From positions 1 to 41,964 of the IMG/VR virus record IMGVR_UViG_3300021083_000077: DNA of 41,964 nt; one strand, written 5' to 3'. Source of the DNA: a virus. Each line of letters begins with the position of its first letter. Position 1 is the first letter of the stretch. The position numbers and the translations under genes are program-made. The notes under the pieces were generated by a model that ran no database searches, was not told the DNA's origin, and worked only from the letters and a program-made list of their open reading frames with translations. Below are positions 1,211-36,583 of this stretch, piece after piece.

Positions 1211-1226
1211 TTTAAAAGGATTTAAA
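1211..1226 (+). promoter_or_regulatory. RBS hairpin, hexaloop AAGGAU (CsrA-type site)
   Basis: TTTAA (1211-1215), loop AAGGAT (1216-1221), TTAAA (1222-1226), with the AUG at 1227. It is a perfect five-pair but all-AU stem. The Shine-Dalgarno sequence is the loop. Confidence 0.55.
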
Positions 1227-2021
1227 ATGGCTATCATAAATATTACACCTGGCCAAACAGGGCTAGTAGGAGTGCTTCCAAGCATTGCCTATATTCAGAC
1301 TAGCGATCCATTGGCAACGGTTATGGCCACAGGATATCTCAACCATGAGATTCAATTAGGGCTTCAATTTTCATTGCCTTGCCTTGCCTCGGTAAGTACC
1401 CAAGAAACACCCACTTCCGCAGTCAGGGTCGTATGGCTTCAGGTCGTACACGTTGCTCCAAACTGGTCATTAATTCCCATCAATGGTGGCGCTAATCCAG
1501 GCACTATAAATCAGTTGGCCTATTATGCTGCTACTGGAAATACTGTCTCAGGCATTGGGCCACTAACTAATGGTCAAGTGCTAATTGGTTCTACCGGACA
1601 ACCTCCTGTTGCTGCAAATATAACTGGTACTGGTGGGGTATCTGTAAATAACACTGCTGGCGGAATTCAGATTAGCGGTACTGGTGGTGGCATAGGCTGG
1701 AATAATATTACCGGAACTACTCAGCAGATGGTAACTAATACTGCGTATGTTGCTGCTAATGCCGGACTAGTAACTCTTACACTACCTGTTTTGGCTGGAT
1801 TTGGAACAGTGCAAGGTGTTGTTGGTCATGGTGCTGGTGGCTGGCTTATAGCCCAAAATGCTGGGCAAAATATTCAGGTTGGCGCTACGTCTACTACAGC
1901 TGGAGTGGGCGGCTCGGTAGCATCATCTAATTTCTCTGATACCATTGATTTAGTATGTGTAGTTGCAAATACAACTTGGGCTATTGTTGGCGCTCCACAG
2001 GGAATATTAACTGTCGTTTAA
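1227..2021 (+). CDS. Fibre-associated protein with shared N-terminal module, 264 aa
   Basis: The first roughly 85 residues (xIIxxTPGQTGLVGVLPSIAYI, then GYLN.E, QFSLPC, VVHV..NWSL) are clearly paralogous to the N-terminus of the gene at 4304-5167. The C-terminal parts differ. Residues about 165-264 form a Gly/Val/Ala-rich beta-type region ending in LVCVVANTTW, a style common in phage fibre tips. A natural reading is an attachment module carrying interchangeable distal domains. It follows an AAGGAU hairpin and is spaced 10 bases from the next gene. Confidence 0.75.
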   Translation: MAIINITPGQTGLVGVLPSIAYIQTSDPLATVMATGYLNHEIQLGLQFSLPCLASVSTQETPTSAVRVVWLQVVHVAPNWSLIPINGGANPGTINQLAYYAATGNTVSGIGPLTNGQVLIGSTGQPPVAANITGTGGVSVNNTAGGIQISGTGGGIGWNNITGTTQQMVTNTAYVAANAGLVTLTLPVLAGFGTVQGVVGHGAGGWLIAQNAGQNIQVGATSTTAGVGGSVASSNFSDTIDLVCVVANTTWAIVGAPQGILTVV

Positions 2022-2031
2022 AGGATTAAAC
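2016..2031 (+). promoter_or_regulatory. RBS hairpin, hexaloop AAGGAU (CsrA-type site)
   Basis: GTTTA (2016-2020), loop AAGGAT (2021-2026), TAAAC (2027-2031), with the AUG at 2032. It is a perfect five-pair stem and one of the clearest members of the series. Confidence 0.6.
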
Positions 2032-4303: not shown

Positions 4304-5167
4304 ATGCCTATTATTACAGTAACACCAGGTCAAACAGGATTGGTCGGAGTTTTACCCAGCATCGCATATATAGACACTGATGATACGGTTGCTGAAATTA
4401 TTACTACAGGTTATTTGAATAAGGAAGTTGCGAATGGCGCTCAGTTTTCGTTGCCATGTATTGCTGCCGTAACCACGGTTGCTTCACCTGGTGCTGCTCC
4501 AGCAGTAGGTTGGTATCAAGTAGTTCATGTAGGCTCAAATTGGTCTCTGACGGTTGACTCAAGCGACATCATTGGACTTACTTCAGGCCATATATTTGTC
4601 GGAAGTGCTGGCAATATCGCCACCGATGTAGCCATGACAGGGGATATAGGCATAACAAATGCTGGTGTTACGGCGATTCAGGCAGGCGTAATTGTTAATG
4701 CTGATATTAATGCGGCGGCTGCTATTGCCTACTCTAAATTGGCAGCTCTAACAAGTGGAGATATATTAGTAGGTTCTGCTGGCAATGTGCCAACTGCTGT
4801 AGCCATGTCAGGAGATGCGACAATTATAGCCTCTGGTGCACTAACTATTGCCGCTAACGCTATCACTACCGCTAAGATTCTCAATGCTAACGTAACTTTA
4901 GCAAAATTATCAGCTGGCATAACACCAAGTAATGTAATTAAGTTCGCGGCTCAGTATACTACTCTCGGCGGCGCAGCAGCAGAAGCCATAACTATAGCTG
5001 GAGCATTAGCTACTGACTTAGCATTTGTTCAGCTTGTTGGAGTTGCTGGGAACGTAGTAACAGTGCTTCATGCAGTGGTTACAACAAATACATTGACGGT
5101 GACATTTAGTGGCGATCCAGGTGCTGGTGACATCATCAATTATCAATTAATTCGTGCAGCATCTTAA
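4304..5167 (+). CDS. Fibre-associated protein, paralogue of 1227-2021, 287 aa
   Basis: The N-terminal roughly 85 residues repeat the module of the 1227-2021 gene. The middle has two repeats of the form LTSGxIxVGSAGNxxTxVAMSGD (near residues 93 and 160), followed by an A..I..AKLA..T pattern typical of phage fibre shafts. The C-terminus (about 215-287) is a compact beta-like region. It is probably a virion fibre or fibre-adaptor. The start is preceded by ATACAGGGAG, which matches the linear CsrA consensus RUACARGGA. Confidence 0.75.
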   Translation: MPIITVTPGQTGLVGVLPSIAYIDTDDTVAEIITTGYLNKEVANGAQFSLPCIAAVTTVASPGAAPAVGWYQVVHVGSNWSLTVDSSDIIGLTSGHIFVGSAGNIATDVAMTGDIGITNAGVTAIQAGVIVNADINAAAAIAYSKLAALTSGDILVGSAGNVPTAVAMSGDATIIASGALTIAANAITTAKILNANVTLAKLSAGITPSNVIKFAAQYTTLGGAAAEAITIAGALATDLAFVQLVGVAGNVVTVLHAVVTTNTLTVTFSGDPGAGDIINYQLIRAAS

Positions 5168-5178
5168 TAAGGAAATTA
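5165..5178 (+). promoter_or_regulatory. RBS hairpin, hexaloop AAGGAA (CsrA-type site)
   Basis: TAAT (5165-5168), loop AAGGAA (5169-5174), ATTA (5175-5178), with the AUG at 5180. The stem is a weak four-pair AU helix, but the arrangement matches the other late starts. Confidence 0.4.
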
Positions 5179-8092: not shown

Positions 8093-8104
8093 GTGATCCC
8101 TCAC
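8093..8104 (-). promoter_or_regulatory. recT RBS mini-hairpin, loop AGGGAU
   Basis: On the minus strand GTG-AGGGAT-CAC directly precedes the recT AUG. The three-pair stem is weak, but the hexaloop has the ANGGA motif of CsrA sites and contains the Shine-Dalgarno sequence. Confidence 0.3.
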
Positions 8105-9029: not shown

Positions 9030-9257
9030 ATGACTGTAGATGAAGTTTATAAATATTTTGGCACGTTTTATCAGGTGTGCAAGGCGCTTAAAATTGCACA
9101 GCAGAACCCAACCAAGTGGAAGAAGAAGGGGTATATTCCACTTTTGCAACAGTATCGCATTGCGGAGTTAACGGACGGAGTGTTAATGCCCGATGAGATT
9201 GACCCCAGAATTGTGTATCAAGAAAGGATTAAGGATAACGATGCTGCTAATAAATGA
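9030..9257 (+). CDS. Cro-like DNA-binding regulator, 75 aa
   Basis: The start at 9030 is set by GAGGAG six bases upstream; the longer ORF starts within the promoter. The sequence DEVYKYFGTFYQVCKALKIAQQNPTKWKKKGYIP resembles Cro/YdaS-type helix-turn-helix regulators: a short helix, then the A..L.i....t.Wkk.g.iP pattern in which the chromosomal Cro family reads DNA. It sits at the divergent promoter, as lambdoid Cro does, and probably represses one or both operons. No CI-type partner or integrase is seen, so lysogeny control is unproven. Confidence 0.75.
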   Translation: MTVDEVYKYFGTFYQVCKALKIAQQNPTKWKKKGYIPLLQQYRIAELTDGVLMPDEIDPRIVYQERIKDNDAANK

Positions 9258-10083
9258 TAAACCGATTAACTATTTTAAATTCCCAGGTGGTGAGCTGCAA
9301 GTAAAGCTTCCCGATTTTATTGAGTGTGAGCGCGTGGAACTGACATGGCTGCCGACCAACTCCGAGGACATAATGCTGCTGCTACTGGCTGCTAATGCCC
9401 TCAAGCACTACGGAATATATGACATTCACCTTGATTGTCTTTACCTCCCATATGCTAGGCAGGACAGGGTTTGCAATCCAGGTGAGGCATTTAGCTTGGA
9501 GCTTATCTGCAAGCTTTTGGATGGCTGTGGTTTCGCAGGAATTAATTTCTGGGACTTGCACAACTGGTCAGATACGATCCCATTATTTAAAAATACCTTT
9601 GTTTTCGAGGCAGAGGCTTCCGATATCTTTGCCAGATTCAAGGTATTGGATAACTTTGACCTCAAAAATCTAATGCTGTGTGCGCCCGATGGGGGAGCAT
9701 GGGGTCGAGTTGATGCCATATGCTCTAAATTTGACGTTTGGCATCCTTCAATCCAGCTTTCAAAGGTCAGAAATTGTGAAACAGGAGAGATTACAGGACT
9801 ACAGTATTCCGCTATTACATCGTTTAATCCCGAGTTGAATGGAGAGACTGTATTAGTTGTAGACGATATCTGCGATGGAGGCCGAACGTTTATCGAAGCT
9901 GCAAAACTTCTGAAGACCAAGACGGCTGGCAAGCTCTATCTCTACGTTACTCATGGCATCTTTAGCCGTGGCTTGACTGAGTTACTACGCCATTACGAGC
10001 ATATCTATTGCCACCATGTGTTAGACCATGACTTCAAATCCAATGCACGCTTAACAATACTAAAGGAATTTCCGAATGAATGA
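9241..10083 (+). CDS. Ribose-phosphate pyrophosphokinase-like enzyme, candidate ADPR-pyrophosphate synthetase (NARP1 Adps)
   Basis: Prs-family fold. FPGGELQVKL is at the N-terminus, PYARQDRV is at about residues 70-76, DLHN at about 105-108, and the PRPP-type loop VVDDICDGG is at about 206-214, followed by RTF. At 280 residues it is slightly shorter than cellular Prs. It is directly joined (8-base overlap) to a NAMPT-like gene. Phage gene pairs annotated as Prs plus NAMPT form the NARP1 pathway. There the Prs-like enzyme (Adps) pyrophosphorylates ADP-ribose and the NAMPT-like enzyme (Namat) joins it to nicotinamide to rebuild NAD+ after NAD-depleting defences. The loop CDGGRTF differs from the usual DTGGT, which fits a changed substrate. 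A plain PRPP synthetase supplying NAMPT is the alternative. Confidence 0.85.
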   Translation: MLLINDKPINYFKFPGGELQVKLPDFIECERVELTWLPTNSEDIMLLLLAANALKHYGIYDIHLDCLYLPYARQDRVCNPGEAFSLELICKLLDGCGFAGINFWDLHNWSDTIPLFKNTFVFEAEASDIFARFKVLDNFDLKNLMLCAPDGGAWGRVDAICSKFDVWHPSIQLSKVRNCETGEITGLQYSAITSFNPELNGETVLVVDDICDGGRTFIEAAKLLKTKTAGKLYLYVTHGIFSRGLTELLRHYEHIYCHHVLDHDFKSNARLTILKEFPNE

Positions 10084-11584
10084 TCTTAATCCACTATTAG
10101 CTATCGACTTTTACAAGGTAGACCACCGTAGACAGTATCCAGAAGGCACCACAGAGATTTACAGTAACTTTACACCACGGTATTACAAGAAGTCACACAG
10201 CTTGTTACGAGCCTATGACGGTAAGGTTGTGGTGTTTGGGATTCAAGGGTTCATCAAGTCGTTCTTCGAGGAGCAATGGCAGAAGAACTTCTTTGGAAGG
10301 CCTAAGAGTGAGGTAATTGGAGAATATACGGATATAATTCAAACCGCGCTTGGCATTCCTATTTTTGACTGCTCACACCTGGCAGCATTGCATGACCTGG
10401 GTTACTTACCAATCAGGATTAAAGCGATTGACGAGGGCTTTCGAGTGCCAATAGGCATTCCAGTGTTGACTATAGTCAATACCAGACCCGAATTCTTCTG
10501 GCTAACCAATTACCTTGAAACCGCTTTATCTGCTGGACTGTGGAAGGCGATCACATCGGCAACGATTGCGTTCGAATTTAAGACACTCTTAACTCGCTAT
10601 GCCATCTTGACCGGAAGCGATCCCGAGTTCGTCAAATTCCAGTGTCATGATTTTAGCTTTCGGGGCATGTCTGGTATCGATGATGCGACCGTTTCAGGCG
10701 CTGCACATTTAACCTCGTTTGTCGGTACTGATTGCGTTCCTGCTATAGCATATTTGAATAAGTATTATGATGGTGAGTCTACTTGCACCCTTGTTGGGAC
10801 TAGCGTTCCAGCGACTGAGCATAGTTGCATGACCTGTAATGGTGTGGAAGGTGAACTTGACACGATAACCAGATTAATTACTGAGATTTACCCCTCTGGA
10901 ATTGTATCAATTGTGTGCGATTCGTATGATTTTTGGAGAAATATTGATGTCAACATTAGAGGGTTACGCGAGAACATTCTTAAGCGTGATGGTCGGGTTG
11001 TTATTCGGCCTGATTCTGGGAACCCAGTTGATATTATTTGTGGTGATATTACGAGCAAGTCTGGAAGTTTGGAACACAAAGGAGCCTTGCAACTGCTATG
11101 GGATATCTTTGGCGGAACAGTCAATGCAGCAGGTTACAAGGTCTTAGATCCGCATGTCGGCTTGATATACGGCGATGCGATCACAGTGGACAGGGCAAGC
11201 CTTATACTTCAGTTAATGCAGGAAGAGGGGTTTGCTTCAAGTAACATCGTGTTCGGGGTTGGTTCCTACACTTATCAATACGTCACCAGGGACACTTTCG
11301 GGTTCGCAATGAAGGCGACTAGTTGTGTCGTAAATGGTGAGCGTAGAGCAATCTTCAAGGATCCAATTACTGCAAGCGGAAAACAGACCAAGAAATCGGC
11401 CATGGGCTTACTGTACGTGGGCTTAAAAGGTAATTTGACCATGCACTTACAGGATAACGCCACACCTGAAGATGAAGCGCGTGGGATGCTTACTATGGTG
11501 TACGAGAACGGCAAAATGGTAGGTAATACCAACTTGGCTGATATTCGGTACAACTTAACTCTGGAACTTGATAGGATAGAGTAA
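10076..11584 (+). CDS. nadV: Nicotinamide phosphoribosyltransferase-like enzyme (NAMPT/NadV; candidate NARP1 Namat), 502 aa
   Basis: A full-length NAMPT-family protein. It has DFYKVDHRRQYPEGTTEIYSN at residues 11-31, SFRGM near residue 197, a VSIVCDSYDFW core, VIRPDSG..V, and LIYGDAITVDR near residue 364, followed by FGVGSYTYQYVTRDTFGFAMKAT. Canonical NAMPT makes NMN from nicotinamide and PRPP; the NARP1 enzyme Namat instead uses ADPR-pyrophosphate to make NAD+ directly. The overlap with the Prs-like gene indicates they act together. No NMN adenylyltransferase is seen in the window, which favours the one-step NARP1 route. It acts in the host cytoplasm. Confidence 0.92.
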   Translation: MNDLNPLLAIDFYKVDHRRQYPEGTTEIYSNFTPRYYKKSHSLLRAYDGKVVVFGIQGFIKSFFEEQWQKNFFGRPKSEVIGEYTDIIQTALGIPIFDCSHLAALHDLGYLPIRIKAIDEGFRVPIGIPVLTIVNTRPEFFWLTNYLETALSAGLWKAITSATIAFEFKTLLTRYAILTGSDPEFVKFQCHDFSFRGMSGIDDATVSGAAHLTSFVGTDCVPAIAYLNKYYDGESTCTLVGTSVPATEHSCMTCNGVEGELDTITRLITEIYPSGIVSIVCDSYDFWRNIDVNIRGLRENILKRDGRVVIRPDSGNPVDIICGDITSKSGSLEHKGALQLLWDIFGGTVNAAGYKVLDPHVGLIYGDAITVDRASLILQLMQEEGFASSNIVFGVGSYTYQYVTRDTFGFAMKATSCVVNGERRAIFKDPITASGKQTKKSAMGLLYVGLKGNLTMHLQDNATPEDEARGMLTMVYENGKMVGNTNLADIRYNLTLELDRIE

Positions 11585-14682: not shown

Positions 14683-14704
14683 GATAATCTCCTTGTAGTT
14701 AAAA

Positions 14705-23489: not shown

Positions 23490-24000
23490 AGAGATATGGA
23501 ACTGGCATAACATTCTTGAAGAACAGAAGGTATCAGGTCTAAGTGTTGTAAAGTTCTGTAAAAAATATAAACATGACTATAATAGGTTCACAAATTTAAA
23601 GTTTAGACTCATCTATATTAGCCTTTCACAACCACAAGAATATGAACGACTTACTAAGTTTACACGAGAGTTAATGGCTAGTGAGTTACCTATATCTAAG
23701 TTTTGTAACTTGCATAAGCTTAATAAAAAGGTGATCGCAGAAGTCCAAACACATCTTAATTATTTAGATATTATCGAACGGATTAAACTAGAACGAGGAG
23801 ACGAACCGACAATGAATTTTGTACAGATTAAATCTACAATTACAGATCCAATCTACCAGCTAAATCCACCTGCAACTGAAGTAATAGAACCGAAGAACGA
23901 TATTGAAATTGCAATTACTAAAGGAGTTCGTGTAAGTGTATCGCCTCACATAGACAGCTCAAAGATTATTAGAATTATTGAACTTTTAAAGGACTTATAA
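23467..24000 (+). CDS. tnpA: IS66-type TnpA (helix-turn-helix) protein, 177 aa
   Basis: The start at 23467 (MSMKLSDEEIWNWHNILEEQ) has GGAAGGTGAAG upstream. The N-terminal part repeats the IS66 TnpA pattern W...l..q..SGLSv..FCk.., and a second copy (FTRELMASELPISKFCNLH) follows. The C-terminus IEIAITKGVRVSVSPHIDSSKIIRIIELLKDL matches the typical end of IS66 OrfA (I.i..G..i.v....d...l..li..L). It overlaps TnpB by one base. In IS66 elements TnpA, TnpB and the transposase TnpC occur together; here TnpC is absent. Confidence 0.75.
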   Translation: MSMKLSDEEIWNWHNILEEQKVSGLSVVKFCKKYKHDYNRFTNLKFRLIYISLSQPQEYERLTKFTRELMASELPISKFCNLHKLNKKVIAEVQTHLNYLDIIERIKLERGDEPTMNFVQIKSTITDPIYQLNPPATEVIEPKNDIEIAITKGVRVSVSPHIDSSKIIRIIELLKDL

Positions 24001-24353
24001 TGTTAATACCATATGAAAATCGAAAAATATACATGGCATCCAAACCCGTTGACTTCCGCATGTCTATAGACGGCCTCTCGACATTCATCCAGAGAGAGAA
24101 GCACAACCACATTCACGATGGCAGCATCTATGTCTTTTATAACTCGCACCGTGACAAGATTAAGTGTCTATTCTGGGACCAAAATGGATTCGTACTGTAC
24201 TACAAGCGCCTGGACAAGTGTAAGTTCAAGTTCAAGGACATGCGCAAAGCTATTGAAGACATCACTGCCGAAGAACTGGATATTCTGCTGTCTGGGTTTG
24301 AGCCAGGTAACGTTGTTCGTCAGCCGAGGTTACTGAATAGTGTTGTAGGGTAA
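24000..24353 (+). CDS. tnpB: IS66-type accessory protein TnpB, 117 aa
   Basis: All landmarks of IS66 Orf2/TnpB are present: the N-terminus with IYMASKPVDFRMSIDGLSTFIQ, then GSIYVFYNSHRDKIKCLFWDQNGFVLYYKRLDKCKF, and ITAEELDILLSGF at the end. Length is normal. It is translationally coupled to TnpA (TAATG). No tnpC follows: tRNA genes begin within 50 bases, and I could not see IS66-like terminal inverted repeats. It is either a decayed element or a domesticated pair. Confidence 0.85.
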   Translation: MLIPYENRKIYMASKPVDFRMSIDGLSTFIQREKHNHIHDGSIYVFYNSHRDKIKCLFWDQNGFVLYYKRLDKCKFKFKDMRKAIEDITAEELDILLSGFEPGNVVRQPRLLNSVVG

Positions 24354-24806: not shown

Positions 24807-24881
24807 CCTTCTCAATTTTCATCTCAACTTGATCTAATATGTAGTAATTTTGCCAAGTTTTATGCTATTTTAATTGTAAGG

Positions 24882-24914
24882 CATCCAAGGATGGATGTTC
24901 GGCAAAGGATTGCC
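24882..24914 (+). promoter_or_regulatory. Two tandem AAGGAU hairpins in the terL leader (CsrA-type double site)
   Basis: CATCC-AAGGAT-GGATG (24882-24897) and GGCA-AAGGAT-TGCC (24901-24914). Both loops are the same hexamer and their GGA cores lie 18 bases apart (24889 and 24907), a spacing known to favour CsrA dimer bridging. The second loop serves as the Shine-Dalgarno of terL (AUG at 24920). Confidence 0.7.
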
Positions 24915-24919
24915 CCCTT

Positions 24920-26476
24920 ATGGATCAAGCATTACAGCGCAAGCTGGATAATGCAGAGGTTGCCGCTAAACTCAAGGGCAGTCTCCTGCTATTCATTCAA
25001 GCTTTCTTCCCGATACTGACCGGACGTGAATTTATCATATCGCGTCCTGTTGGTCGTGAATCTCATTTTATAACTATTTGTCGCGCTCTTACTAAGTGTA
25101 CTCGGCTCCAGGCTCTCAGGCTTCTGGTCAATGTTCCCCCTGGTCACGGCAAATCTGTCATTGTCAGCTTCTGGATAGCGTGGTGTATGGCCAAATGGCC
25201 GGACTGCAACTTCCTGTACATATCCTATTCTAAGACCTTGGCCTCTACTCATACCGATACGGTCAAGAAGATCATGTCTCTTAGCCAATACAAGGTGCTA
25301 TTCGATGTGCATTTACGCGAAGATTCTCAAGCTAAAGATTCGTTTACTACGACTGCGGGTGGAACTGTATCTGCGTTCGGCTCTGCTGGCTCCATTACTG
25401 GACGCAATGCTGGCCTTCCTGGTCTGGATAGATTCTCAGGAGCCGTAATCATTGATGATAGTCACAAGCCAGACGAGGTTCACTCGGATTTGATTCGAGA
25501 GGGTGTGATAACTAATTACCGAGAAACTATTCAACAGCGTCCTCGTGGCGTGAATGTTCCCATAGTCTTCATAGGTCAACGCTTACATGAGCAGGACCTG
25601 CCAGCATATTTTATTGCTGGTGATGATGGTTACGAATGGGAAAAGGTAATCATTAAATCATTAGATGATGCTGGCAATGCTCTTTATCCAGAAGCCTTCC
25701 CTCTTGACATGTTGCTTATACGCCAGAAGACAGACAAGTACGTATTTGCTGCTCAACATCAGCAAGAGCCTCAGCCATCTGGGGGAGGACTATTCATGCC
25801 AGAAGACTTCGTGCTCATGGATGTTGAGCCAGAATACTATATCACCTTTATAACTGCCGATACAGCCGAGACAGAAGACCTACGCAACGATGCTACAGTA
25901 TTCAGCTTCTGGGGAATGTACAATATTGAGACAGAAGGACGCAAGACAGGCGTAATGGGTTTGCACTGGATAGCATGTCGTGAGATTCGCGTAGAGCCAA
26001 AGGATCTTGAGAATGAGTTCATCGACTTCTGGCAGGAGTGCGCTAGACATGAAAACCCTCCCCTGATTGCTTATATTGAGAAGAAGTCTACCGGAGTAAC
26101 CCTACTATCTATCTTGAAGGACATGCGAGGCCTGAAGGTACGTGAGATTGAGCGTACCAGGATGTCAGGCTCTAAGAGTCAACGCTTCATCGACATTCAG
26201 CCCTACATTGCTAGTAAGCAGGTGTCTCTTCCTGCGAATGGTCGCCATACGGATATGTGCATCAATCACATGAAGAAGATTGCGAACAATGACTCACACG
26301 CGCATGACGACATTGCAGATACCTGTAGTGACGCAGTTCGTATTGCCCTGATTGAGCGCATTCTCTCGGTATATACATCCAAGGATATTAAGACACGTGA
26401 AGCTACGATGGCTGCCGTAAATCGCTATAACAACGTAGTGGAATTGAAGTTGAAAGCCTACAGGACAAGGAATTAG
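24920..26476 (+). CDS. terL: Terminase large subunit, 518 aa
   Basis: Walker A VPPGHGKS at about residues 72-79, YISYSKTLA, Walker B GAVIIDDSH at about 174-182, and a nuclease domain starting with the Asp of ITADTAETEDLRNDAT near 310. It cuts and translocates phage DNA into the prohead. Length and motif spacing are normal for P22-type/headful terminases. The leader carries the double hairpin. It is followed directly (2 bases) by the portal gene. Confidence 0.95.
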   Translation: MDQALQRKLDNAEVAAKLKGSLLLFIQAFFPILTGREFIISRPVGRESHFITICRALTKCTRLQALRLLVNVPPGHGKSVIVSFWIAWCMAKWPDCNFLYISYSKTLASTHTDTVKKIMSLSQYKVLFDVHLREDSQAKDSFTTTAGGTVSAFGSAGSITGRNAGLPGLDRFSGAVIIDDSHKPDEVHSDLIREGVITNYRETIQQRPRGVNVPIVFIGQRLHEQDLPAYFIAGDDGYEWEKVIIKSLDDAGNALYPEAFPLDMLLIRQKTDKYVFAAQHQQEPQPSGGGLFMPEDFVLMDVEPEYYITFITADTAETEDLRNDATVFSFWGMYNIETEGRKTGVMGLHWIACREIRVEPKDLENEFIDFWQECARHENPPLIAYIEKKSTGVTLLSILKDMRGLKVREIERTRMSGSKSQRFIDIQPYIASKQVSLPANGRHTDMCINHMKKIANNDSHAHDDIADTCSDAVRIALIERILSVYTSKDIKTREATMAAVNRYNNVVELKLKAYRTRN

Positions 26477-29293: not shown

Positions 29294-29365
29294 CTGGCCG
29301 CGATGGATGCCAGGCAAAATACGCATCTATGCGGGATAAATAGTCGGGACTACCACGGATGGTAG
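29294..29365 (+). promoter_or_regulatory. Two ANGGA-loop hairpins in the scaffold-gene leader
   Basis: CTGGC (29294-29298), a 10-base loop ending in ATGGAT, GCCAG (29309-29313); and CTACC (29350-29354), hexaloop ACGGAT, GGTAG (29361-29365). Both stems are perfect five-pairs. A TG-extended -10 box (TGCTATACT, 29265-29273) lies upstream, so this leader may start a late transcript. Confidence 0.6.
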
Positions 29366-29389
29366 GTGATTACGGTCACACCGGAAACA

Positions 29390-30166
29390 GTGAGATTTCG
29401 AATGGATAAGGATATTGCAGAAGAATTGCAAGAGACTATTGTGGATGAAGCAGAAGCCCCTAAAGAGGCCGAAGCAACACAACCTGAAAAGCTGATTCCG
29501 GTTTCACGTGTTAATGAGCTTGTAAAAAAGGCTAAATATCATGGAGAGCGGAAAATGCAAGAGCAATTAGATGCGGCTAGACAGCAAATCGAGCAGCTAC
29601 AGGCGCAACAAGGTCAGCAACCAGTTCAGCAACCGCAAGGACAACAACCCCAGCAGCAGCAACAGCAGCAAGGGATGTCGCCAGAGCAGATGCAACAGGT
29701 TATGGCTATGGTGCAGAAGCAGCAGCAAGACCAGCAAGAGAAAGCGCATCAGGCACAGCTTGAAAAGGAAGTGAATGACGTAGCGGAACAGTATTTCGGA
29801 AAGCTTGCCCAAGGAAGGGAGGCATACGAGGACTTTGACGCTGTTACCGCAGATTTCGATCCGGCGGCGTTCCCACAATTAGTTTATTTAGCCACTCAGA
29901 CGGATAACACTGCTGCCATAATTTATGAGCTTCAGAAGAATCCGGCTAAGTTAGCTGCCCTATCTCACCTGGTGGATAAATCACCCGCCATGGCTAGAAA
30001 GGAGTTAGCGAAGCTTAGTCAGTCGATTAAGACTAATGATGAAGCTAGAAGTAACTTGCAAGAAGCTCAAGACCCCCTTAACCGTTTGAAGTCTTCCCCT
30101 GTGGGAACTGACAATGGTACGAAGGGTGTACGGGATTACAAACAGGCTTCCTATTTAAAGGCTTAG
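29390..30166 (+). CDS. Scaffolding protein, probable, about 258 aa
   Basis: It lies between portal and coat, the usual scaffold position. Highly helical and charged, with a Gln-rich stretch (about residues 65-105) and a helical C-terminus with basic residues. No sequence motif proves it. The start is uncertain: GUG at 29390 has GGAA upstream; AUG at 29402 or GUG at 29366 are alternatives. Scaffold guides coat assembly and is released or recycled. Confidence 0.7.
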   Translation: MRFRMDKDIAEELQETIVDEAEAPKEAEATQPEKLIPVSRVNELVKKAKYHGERKMQEQLDAARQQIEQLQAQQGQQPVQQPQGQQPQQQQQQQGMSPEQMQQVMAMVQKQQQDQQEKAHQAQLEKEVNDVAEQYFGKLAQGREAYEDFDAVTADFDPAAFPQLVYLATQTDNTAAIIYELQKNPAKLAALSHLVDKSPAMARKELAKLSQSIKTNDEARSNLQEAQDPLNRLKSSPVGTDNGTKGVRDYKQASYLKA

Positions 30167-30183
30167 TAATCCAACCGAATGGT

Positions 30184-30227
30184 CATGTCAGTTCTCTGAA
30201 TCAATGGATTGATGGAGAAGAGACATG
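30184..30227 (+). promoter_or_regulatory. Long start-sequestering hairpin of the coat gene
   Basis: CATGTC (30184-30189) pairs with GACATG (30222-30227), which includes the AUG. TTCTCTG (30192-30198) pairs with TGGAGAA, the Shine-Dalgarno (30213-30219, two G-U wobbles), and TCA/TGA closes a loop. The apical part reads ATCA-ATGGAT-TGAT (30200-30213), a hexaloop with ANGGA. The start is hidden unless the hairpin is opened. Confidence 0.6.
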
Positions 30228-31469
30228 GCCGTTCCTAATAACATTTTGCAACAAGTACAGACTTATCAATTATCCAACCTAGCGTATCTACAGAACTTAA
30301 ATTGCTTCGTAGCTACTGCTAATACAAAATTCAAAAACTTCGAGAAACTGACTGCTAATTTAGGCGACACAGTGACCTTTGATTTACCACCTAGGTTCAC
30401 AACTGCGCAGTCTTTGGTTGCTACATTCCAGTCTGCTGACCAACGTATCGAGAACCTTACTGTCGGCAATGCCATTAACGTGTCGTATGCATTCACTGCT
30501 CAACAATTTATCTTCAACGTTGAAGATTACATGGAGCAGTTCGGAAAATCGGCTGTCATGGAAATGTCTGCTGAGATTGAATCAGATGTGGCTACCGTTT
30601 GCGTAACTTCTACATATCGTTTCTACGGCGATGGCGTAACCCAAATTAACTCTTATGGTCAATTAGCCGCTGCCCTTGCAATGTTCCGTAACTATGGCGC
30701 TGCAAAGGACAACACCAAGTTCTATATCAGCGATATTGCACAGTCTGCAATCGTGAATACTGGCTTGAACCAATTCACTATGGACCGTAACAATAAATCC
30801 GCTATGTCATGGGATGTTGGTGATTTCGACCGTGCTGCGTTCTATGTATCCAACTTACTACCCGTGCATACTGCCGGAAATGTTGGTAATGAAGCTGCTG
30901 TGCTGACCGTAGTATCTGTAGTATTAGACGCTAACGGCGCTGTGGTTCAAATCGTATTCTCTGGCGCTTCTGATAGTGATGCTAATGCGATCAAAAAATA
31001 TGACAAAGGTCAGTTTAATGATGGCGTAAGTGGACAGCCAAATCTTAGATACCTCACCTTTATTGGTCACAAGGTTTCTAGTAACCCTGTTCAATTCCAA
31101 GTTACAGCAGATGCTGCTGCTACAAGTGGTGGGCAAGTTACAGTTAATGTTTATCCTCCTTTGCAAGCTAACTCAGGTAATGACCAAAACTTGAACTACG
31201 CAATTCAGCCTGGTATGCAAGTTTCCTTCTTGCCTTCACACAGAGCTGGCGTAATCACTGCTGGTAATCCTTTGTTCCTTGGTATGCCAATGTTGCCGGA
31301 AGAAGTACCGTTCCCAACAGGTAATGAAGTTGACCCTGATACTGGCGTTTCAATGCGCATGTATTATGGTAGTTTGTTCGGCCAGAACCAAAGGGGCATG
31401 ATACATGATGCCATATGGGGGAAGACACTGGTCCCAGAATATGCCATGAGCGTCATATTTCCCTTATAA
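30225..31469 (+). CDS. Major coat protein, P22 gp5-like, 414 aa
   Basis: MAVPNNILQQVQTYQLSNLAYLQNLNCFVATANTKFKNFEKL... GDTVTFDLPPRF... and a long HK97-type fold with FTAQQFIFNVEDYMEQFGKSAVMEM match P22-like coats. Length is near 430. It forms the icosahedral shell. The RNA leader is the long hairpin. The stop (31467-31469) is directly followed by the promoter of the endonuclease gene. Confidence 0.9.
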   Translation: MAVPNNILQQVQTYQLSNLAYLQNLNCFVATANTKFKNFEKLTANLGDTVTFDLPPRFTTAQSLVATFQSADQRIENLTVGNAINVSYAFTAQQFIFNVEDYMEQFGKSAVMEMSAEIESDVATVCVTSTYRFYGDGVTQINSYGQLAAALAMFRNYGAAKDNTKFYISDIAQSAIVNTGLNQFTMDRNNKSAMSWDVGDFDRAAFYVSNLLPVHTAGNVGNEAAVLTVVSVVLDANGAVVQIVFSGASDSDANAIKKYDKGQFNDGVSGQPNLRYLTFIGHKVSSNPVQFQVTADAAATSGGQVTVNVYPPLQANSGNDQNLNYAIQPGMQVSFLPSHRAGVITAGNPLFLGMPMLPEEVPFPTGNEVDPDTGVSMRMYYGSLFGQNQRGMIHDAIWGKTLVPEYAMSVIFPL

Positions 31470-32483: not shown

Positions 32484-32497
32484 TTATAAGGACATAA
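32484..32497 (+). promoter_or_regulatory. RBS hairpin, hexaloop AAGGAC (CsrA-type site)
   Basis: TTAT (32484-32487), loop AAGGAC, ATAA (32494-32497), AUG at 32499. Confidence 0.45.
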
Positions 32498-36247: not shown

Positions 36248-36576
36248 TTATCCCAACCTTCGTGAATGGTATGGCTGTGAATAAAGACGGCTATCTTACA
36301 CCGCAATTGCAGCTGTATAATGACCAATTGAATAGCGTTTTGCGTAATGGTCTATCAAATAATGGCTGGACGTTGCCTGTGGTAACTCAGGCGCAGTTGA
36401 CGGCTATCATGGCATTGCCGAGCAGTCAGGCTCTTCCTGACGGAACTATGTGGGCGGTCCAAGATACCCCTGACTTACCAGCCCCACAGTACGCAGAAAT
36501 AGTCGTGCTATTGGATGATGGCAGTGGCTCTGGTACGAGCGCATTATATAAGTTAACGAAGACAGCTTACCCATAA
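36244..36576 (+). CDS. Hypothetical virion-cluster protein, GUG start, 110 aa
   Basis: GGAGGT six bases before GUG, and the GUG overlaps the gp10 stop (GTGA). Sequence has MAVNKDGYLTPQLQLYNDQLNSVLRNGLSNNGWTLP, resembling short phage tail proteins that recur as 'glutamine-type fibre' segments. It sits where P22 has the needle gene gp26, but is far shorter and without a coiled coil. Role unknown. Confidence 0.6.
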   Translation: MIIPTFVNGMAVNKDGYLTPQLQLYNDQLNSVLRNGLSNNGWTLPVVTQAQLTAIMALPSSQALPDGTMWAVQDTPDLPAPQYAEIVVLLDDGSGSGTSALYKLTKTAYP

Positions 36577-36583
36577 GGATATG
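36572..36583 (+). promoter_or_regulatory. RBS mini-hairpin, loop AAGGAU
   Basis: CAT-AAGGAT-ATG, followed by AG and the AUG at 36586. Three-pair stem; same loop as the strong members. Confidence 0.3.

Follow-up and report, generated by a model that had tools for sequence, protein, structure and literature searches.

The window examined here is the complete 41,964-base virus record IMGVR_UViG_3300021083_000077. It carries genes for the terminase large subunit (terL), a head scaffolding protein and the major capsid protein, each preceded by one or two hairpins that present a GGA trinucleotide in the loop, together with a homolog of csrA and further hairpins of the same type at other gene starts (Table 1). 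A gene for an IS66 Orf2 (TnpB_IS66) protein (24000–24353, plus strand, 5e-29) is located just 5′ of terL and adjoins two tRNA genes, which were the only matches in an Rfam search. Elsewhere on the plus strand (9193–11584), a ribose-phosphate pyrophosphokinase-like gene is followed by a nicotinamide phosphoribosyltransferase-like gene, as identified by Pfam. Judging from these matches, the two genes are likely to be a phage-carried NAD-synthesis pair.

Table 1. Coordinates of hairpins and genes discussed in the text (SD, Shine–Dalgarno)
Feature	Position	Strand	Details
SD hairpin TTTAA-AAGGAT-TTAAA, gene 1227	1211..1226	+	weak alone
SD hairpin GTTTA-AAGGAT-TAAAC, tail gene 2032	2016..2031	+	
SD hairpin TAAT-AAGGAA-ATTA, gene 5180	5165..5178	+	weak alone
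SD hairpin GTG-AGGGAT-CAC, RecT-like gene (phrog_561)	8093..8104	-	kept in 10/10 orthologues
csrA homologue, 63 aa	14491..14682	-	PF02599 E=3e-22, second run 3.3e-21; apparent ATA start; SD AAGGAG 14689-14694
terL leader hairpin 1	24880..24899	+	loop AAGGAU, GGA 24889; 7-bp stem including G-U; -8.4 kcal/mol
terL leader hairpin 2	24901..24914	+	loop AAGGAU, GGA 24907 = SD; -4.4 kcal/mol
terL, terminase large subunit	24920..26476	+	~34% identity to annotated phage terminase large subunits; 78-86% to IMG/VR relatives
Scaffold leader hairpin CTACC-ACGGAT-GGTAG	29350..29365	+	-5.5 kcal/mol; directly before GTG 29366
Head scaffolding protein gene	29366..30166	+	phrog_8865, 1.9e-05
Major-capsid leader hairpin ATCA-ATGGAT-TGAT	30200..30213	+	GGA 30206; separate SD GGAGA from 30214
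Major capsid protein gene	30225..31469	+	phrog_283, 2.2e-19
SD hairpin TTAT-AAGGAC-ATAA, gene 32499	32484..32497	+	weak alone; stems varied yet paired in most orthologues
SD hairpin CAT-AAGGAT-ATG, gene 36586	36572..36583	+	CGT/ACG in relative G016

The core of the first terL hairpin is composed of CATCC (24882–24886), AAGGAT (24887–24892) and GGATG (24893–24897), and the second is composed of GGCA (24901–24904), AAGGAT (24905–24910) and TGCC (24911–24914). An initial annotation of this DNA had described two identical AAGGAU hexaloops whose GGA trinucleotides are exactly 18 nt apart, the second serving as the Shine–Dalgarno of terL. Both statements are confirmed by the coordinates, with GGA 24907 located 13 nt before the ATG at 24920. 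In the computed fold, the terminal A and U of either hexaloop are paired, and thus the minimum-energy form of each is an AGGA tetraloop closed by an A-U pair. Excess folding stability is absent for the complete 81-nt leader (z −0.63). The AAGGAT sequence occurs 38 times in the window compared with 27 expected, and is common because it is a usual Shine–Dalgarno. Pairs of ANGGAN hexaloop hairpins with stems of at least 4 bp and a separation of 10 to 63 nt occur on average 0.015 times per shuffled window strand, so the combination is rare.

A stronger test than rarity is conservation. Searches of IMG/VR and GTDB genomes with TerL yielded 29 distinct terL leaders, and both hairpins were found in all 29. 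(With a 14-base pattern alone, most matches were due to chance, and a start codon had to be required as well.) Pairing is kept in 99.0% of the pair cells of the stem alignment compared with 88.2% in shuffles, and 22 cells carry two-sided changes compared with 5.1 in shuffles. None of 500 shuffles scored as high on any of five measures of co-variation, and only 10%–45% of cells are paired when the registers are slid. The arms of hairpin 1 vary while pairing is kept (TTTGC/GCAAA, TCGC/GCGA, TCTC/GAGA, TCAC/GTGA, ATGC/GCAT, CATCC/GGATG and GAAC/GTTT). Hairpin 2 varies very little; its two compensated variants are GGCU/AGCC (L238) and GGGA/UCCC (L241), and the latter lies 24 nt from the ATG, outside Shine–Dalgarno distance. 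The distance between loops is 18 nt in 25 of the leaders, 17 nt in three and 20 nt in one. An outcome that had been named as refuting the proposed switch, the absence of both loops from close relatives, therefore did not occur.

The loops themselves are conserved to different degrees. Loop 2 conforms to ANGGAN in every leader (AAGGAU, AAGGAA, AAGGAC or ACGGAU). Loop 1, however, contains GGA in only 12 of the 29 (AGGAU/C, AAGGAU or ACGGAA), with UGA in 15 (AUGAU/C) and AGA in two (AAGAU). The GGA, UGA and AGA states are intermixed on the TerL tree, itself of poor resolution, and the window phage groups there with two other GGA phages; a single ancestral GGA state of loop 1 is thus unsupported. 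The comparison of related leaders recommended in the initial annotation consequently upholds both hairpins and the second loop, but not the first GGA. These alignments indicate that the two-hairpin geometry is under selection and that the first GGA is not required within the group.

Several other elements are present in these leaders. A conserved extended −10-like sequence, TRTGNTATTTTA, is located at ~24860–24872, just 5′ of hairpin 1, and occupies the same place in most of the terL relatives, and TATGTAGTRTTTT is found farther 5′ of it in several leaders. Transcription of terL may start very close to hairpin 1. A palindrome, GAAGTACTTC, lies between the promoter-like box and hairpin 1 in L238, L239, L241 and L246, and is not found in the window. 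A conserved upstream open reading frame starting from an ATG in hairpin 1 was considered and rejected, as 11 of the 29 leaders have no such ATG and the frame and stop vary in the rest.

CsrA recognizes A(N)GGA in hairpin loops and represses translation by covering Shine–Dalgarnos, and it bridges sites separated by 10 to 63 nt, best at about 18 nt (PMC7652899). The window terL leader has the corresponding sequence features. Its second GGA overlaps the Shine–Dalgarno, both loops contain A(N)GGA (as do those of the scaffold and capsid leaders), and the two sites are separated by 18 nt, a distance shared by 25 of 29 relatives if UGA and AGA loops are counted. The optimum near 18 nt invoked in the initial annotation therefore agrees with the published range. 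The bridging of two identical GGA loops by CsrA fits the window phage and a few relatives, but does not extend to the group, in which 17 of the 29 first loops carry UGA or AGA in place of GGA and would be expected to bind poorly in the classical CsrA mode.

Because the UGA variants do not suit classical CsrA binding, there is room for another RNA-binding protein. The hairpins might be operators for a different phage or host protein, for example in feedback by TerL, the scaffold or a small phage protein, that reads A-N-(G)GA-N and also accepts UGA at hairpin 1 of terL. This would accommodate a first loop of the form A-N-GA-U/C (where N is G, U or A) at a constant distance from loop 2. We consider this explanation rather unlikely, since the loop consensus, the Shine–Dalgarno position and the spacing all match CsrA closely and GGA is present in most loops. 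Moreover, unrelated genes share the site, as would be expected more readily of a global regulator than of a single product acting by feedback.

The scaffold and capsid leaders also bear on the identity of the reader. Among relatives, 95% of pairs in the scaffold hairpin are kept, and two-sided changes number seven compared with 0–2 in slid registers. The stems include CTAAC/GTTAG, CTACG/CGTAG, CTATC/GATAG, CTGCC/GGCAG and CAACC/GGTTG around a constant ACGGA loop, with shorter loops (AGGAU and ACGAU) in a few relatives. The ACGAU loop of L335, in place of ACGGAU, has the five-base A-N-GA-U form that many terL leaders show in hairpin 1, and its occurrence in one relative is a further point in favor of a protein other than CsrA. 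For the capsid leader, the loop contains ANGGA in all 27 group leaders (AUGGAU, AAGGAU or AAGGAC), and the stem has 14 two-sided changes at slide 0 compared with one to five at most other slides and nine at +3. A separate GGAGA Shine–Dalgarno follows 8 to 12 nt after the looped GGA. Since the looped GGA of the capsid leader is not the Shine–Dalgarno, it must be conserved for a different reason, of which recognition of ANGGA by a protein would be an example. The terL leader had been put forward as the best single test site, but those of the scaffold and capsid genes are at least equally suitable.

Hairpins of this type are abundant throughout the phage. The plus strand of the window has 12 hairpins with an ANGGAN hexaloop and a stem of 4 bp or more, compared with 3.7 expected (the maximum among 200 shuffles was nine), and the minus strand has one. 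Many of these are located at gene starts. Counts over 11 near-complete group members show a hexaloop closed by at least 3 bp at 98 of the 262 genes with an ANGGA Shine–Dalgarno, and one closed by at least 4 bp at 52; the corresponding value for Shine–Dalgarnos lacking A two bases before GGA is 6/153. When the analysis was rerun jointly with controls, for which gene starts were called by the same simple rule, the group yielded 96/257 (37%) and GC-matched unrelated IMG/VR phages yielded 13/161 (8%; Fisher 4e-12). Other controls gave 0/15 for T4, 1/9 and 1/13 for two csrA-carrying reference phages, 22/280 (8%) for the loci of 80 csrA-carrying viral contigs, 3/71 for relatives with 60%–68% capsid identity, and 14/81 for 420 kb of the Legionella maceachernii chromosome, where only 3/81 remain at 4 bp. 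These controls rule out a style of Shine–Dalgarno common to all phages or to the host. One further, more distant phage (G027, comprising L243, L467 and L468; TerL identity 58%) has hairpins at 7/23 Shine–Dalgarnos and a terL leader without the two-hairpin form; its csrA-like match falls below the family cut-off.

As the 11 genomes are related, the gene counts are not independent, and co-variation among orthologues is the safer test. Across orthologue groups, pairing at the three positions that close the loop amounts to 73% in register and 30%–46% when slid, and two-sided changes number 49 in register compared with 6–16. An origin by chance is therefore excluded by the shuffles, the slid registers, the orthologue co-variation and the control phages. 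It is also highly improbable that the inverted repeats are DNA-level signals, whether an operator, a promoter or a packaging site. The TRTGNTATTTTA box just 5′ of most terL leaders and the GAAGTACTTC palindrome in some of them would suit such a role, but the stem sequences change while their pairing is kept, whereas a DNA-binding site would be expected to conserve its sequence.

Stems are present with 68 of 111 loops that have A..U ends and with 5 of 91 that have other pairable ends (summed counts). This association indicates a sequence preference that goes beyond hiding the Shine–Dalgarno. The same data bear on the possibility that no protein is involved, and that the hairpins adjust translation, gate it by temperature or expose the Shine–Dalgarno to ribosomes. 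The Shine–Dalgarno does reside within the loop at most sites, and many stems are so weak that they should open readily, with several AU-rich hairpins having a folding energy of about zero alone. However, this explanation appears quite improbable given the preference for A..U ends, the capsid hairpin that contains no Shine–Dalgarno, and the conservation of the upstream terL hairpin at a set distance.

The CsrA homolog encoded by the window phage scores 74.5 bits with PF02599 compared with a family cut-off of 27. Its translation (ILILTRR...VTVHREE) keeps L4 and R44 (E. coli numbering). L4 is an RNA-contact residue of CsrA. R44 is another (PMC7652899). The gene lacks an ordinary start codon (ATG, GTG or TTG). 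Its start region reads AAGGAG-ATTATC-ATA-CTT, with ATA at the position of the conserved Met, where all eight relatives listed have ATG. A standard listing of open reading frames misses the gene for this reason, and its expression is uncertain. From the sequence, csrA may have an unusual start or be poorly expressed.

Among relatives whose TerL is at least ~78% identical, many of them fragments and 13 exceeding 38 kb, csrA was not detectable. The phage gene therefore cannot be the general ligand, and given the frequency of GGA in loop 1, GGA–GGA bridging by a phage CsrA is not group-wide. A link between the hairpin pattern and phage-encoded csrA is not supported, since csrA-carrying phages do not have the pattern and most of the hairpin-bearing relatives do not have csrA. 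Both observations weigh against CsrA as the ligand, and the lack of csrA in close relatives favors a different protein. The CsrA of the window phage may instead add to or tune control by host CsrA.

The probable host is suggested by an apparent prophage in L. maceachernii ATCC 35300 (L249), whose terL leader is identical to that of L234. A further TerL match is in a metagenome-assembled genome labeled Desulfosporosinus (L248), a label that should not be trusted, and the Legionella assignment thus depends on the one named isolate. Several PF02599 matches are found in the genome of L. maceachernii. A seemingly close csrA match was at first sight adjacent to the prophage, but sits on another contig.

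We consider it probable that the hairpins are translational operators for CsrA, mainly that of the host, which restrain packaging and head genes. The terL pair would be one operator of a phage-wide set, in which the starts of packaging, head and several other genes bear a hairpin with A-N-GGA-N, the CsrA/RsmA recognition loop. The looped GGA would usually be the Shine–Dalgarno itself and, at the capsid gene, would lie just 5′ of it. CsrA dimers, mainly from the host and in the window phage possibly also its own, would occupy the loops and keep ribosomes out. In the window phage and some relatives, one dimer could clamp both terL loops across 18 nt, as in the glgC leader. While free CsrA is high, the packaging and head genes would be restrained at the level of translation, and they would be released once CsrA is titrated or degraded. 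In Legionella, this release would correspond to the shift from the replicative to the transmissive phase. L. pneumophila CsrA is a repressor of transmission traits that is relieved via LetA/S and RsmY/Z (PMC6853998).

More tentatively, a clade of Legionella-type phages could have evolved its translation starts, those of the terminase, scaffold and major capsid genes among them, into CsrA operators, such that a regulator of the host life cycle times virion assembly, with one member adding its own csrA. If true, this would clearly exemplify a phage whose late genes are tied straight to a post-transcriptional regulator of its host. CsrA is the master switch between growth and transmission in Legionella, and many phages carry csrA genes of unexplained purpose. 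The question of CsrA control of phages is hereby reduced to simple tests on three short leaders (terL, scaffold and major capsid).

Translational repression of phage genes at operator sites is known for T4 RegA and the RNA-phage coat protein. As in those systems, an RNA-binding protein would block phage translation starts; here, in contrast, a CsrA-type loop is found repeatedly, at genes for packaging, head, tail and recombination functions. Our literature search, which left most subscription journals outside its reach, found no comparable report on CsrA control of phage structural genes or on Legionella phages, and no phage target of the Legionella CsrA switch. Alleles of csrA have been found in 30 of 2517 phages, and CsrA control of prophage activation in Serratia has been cited (PMC7366521); 85 GenBank phage records have csrA. 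Those phages share with the window a CsrA family gene in the genome, but do not exhibit the Shine–Dalgarno hairpin pattern, which in our group is present mostly without a phage csrA. The CsrA/RsmY/RsmZ/LetA-LetS switch of Legionella (PMC6853998) is similar in that the likely host regulator acts on mRNA leaders. The E. coli glgC leader (PMC7652899) likewise has a hairpin with GGA in its loop just upstream of a second site at the Shine–Dalgarno, at a distance suited to bridging. The phage leader differs from glgC in that it serves a terminase gene, both of its sites are looped, its first GGA varies among relatives, and many genes share the device.
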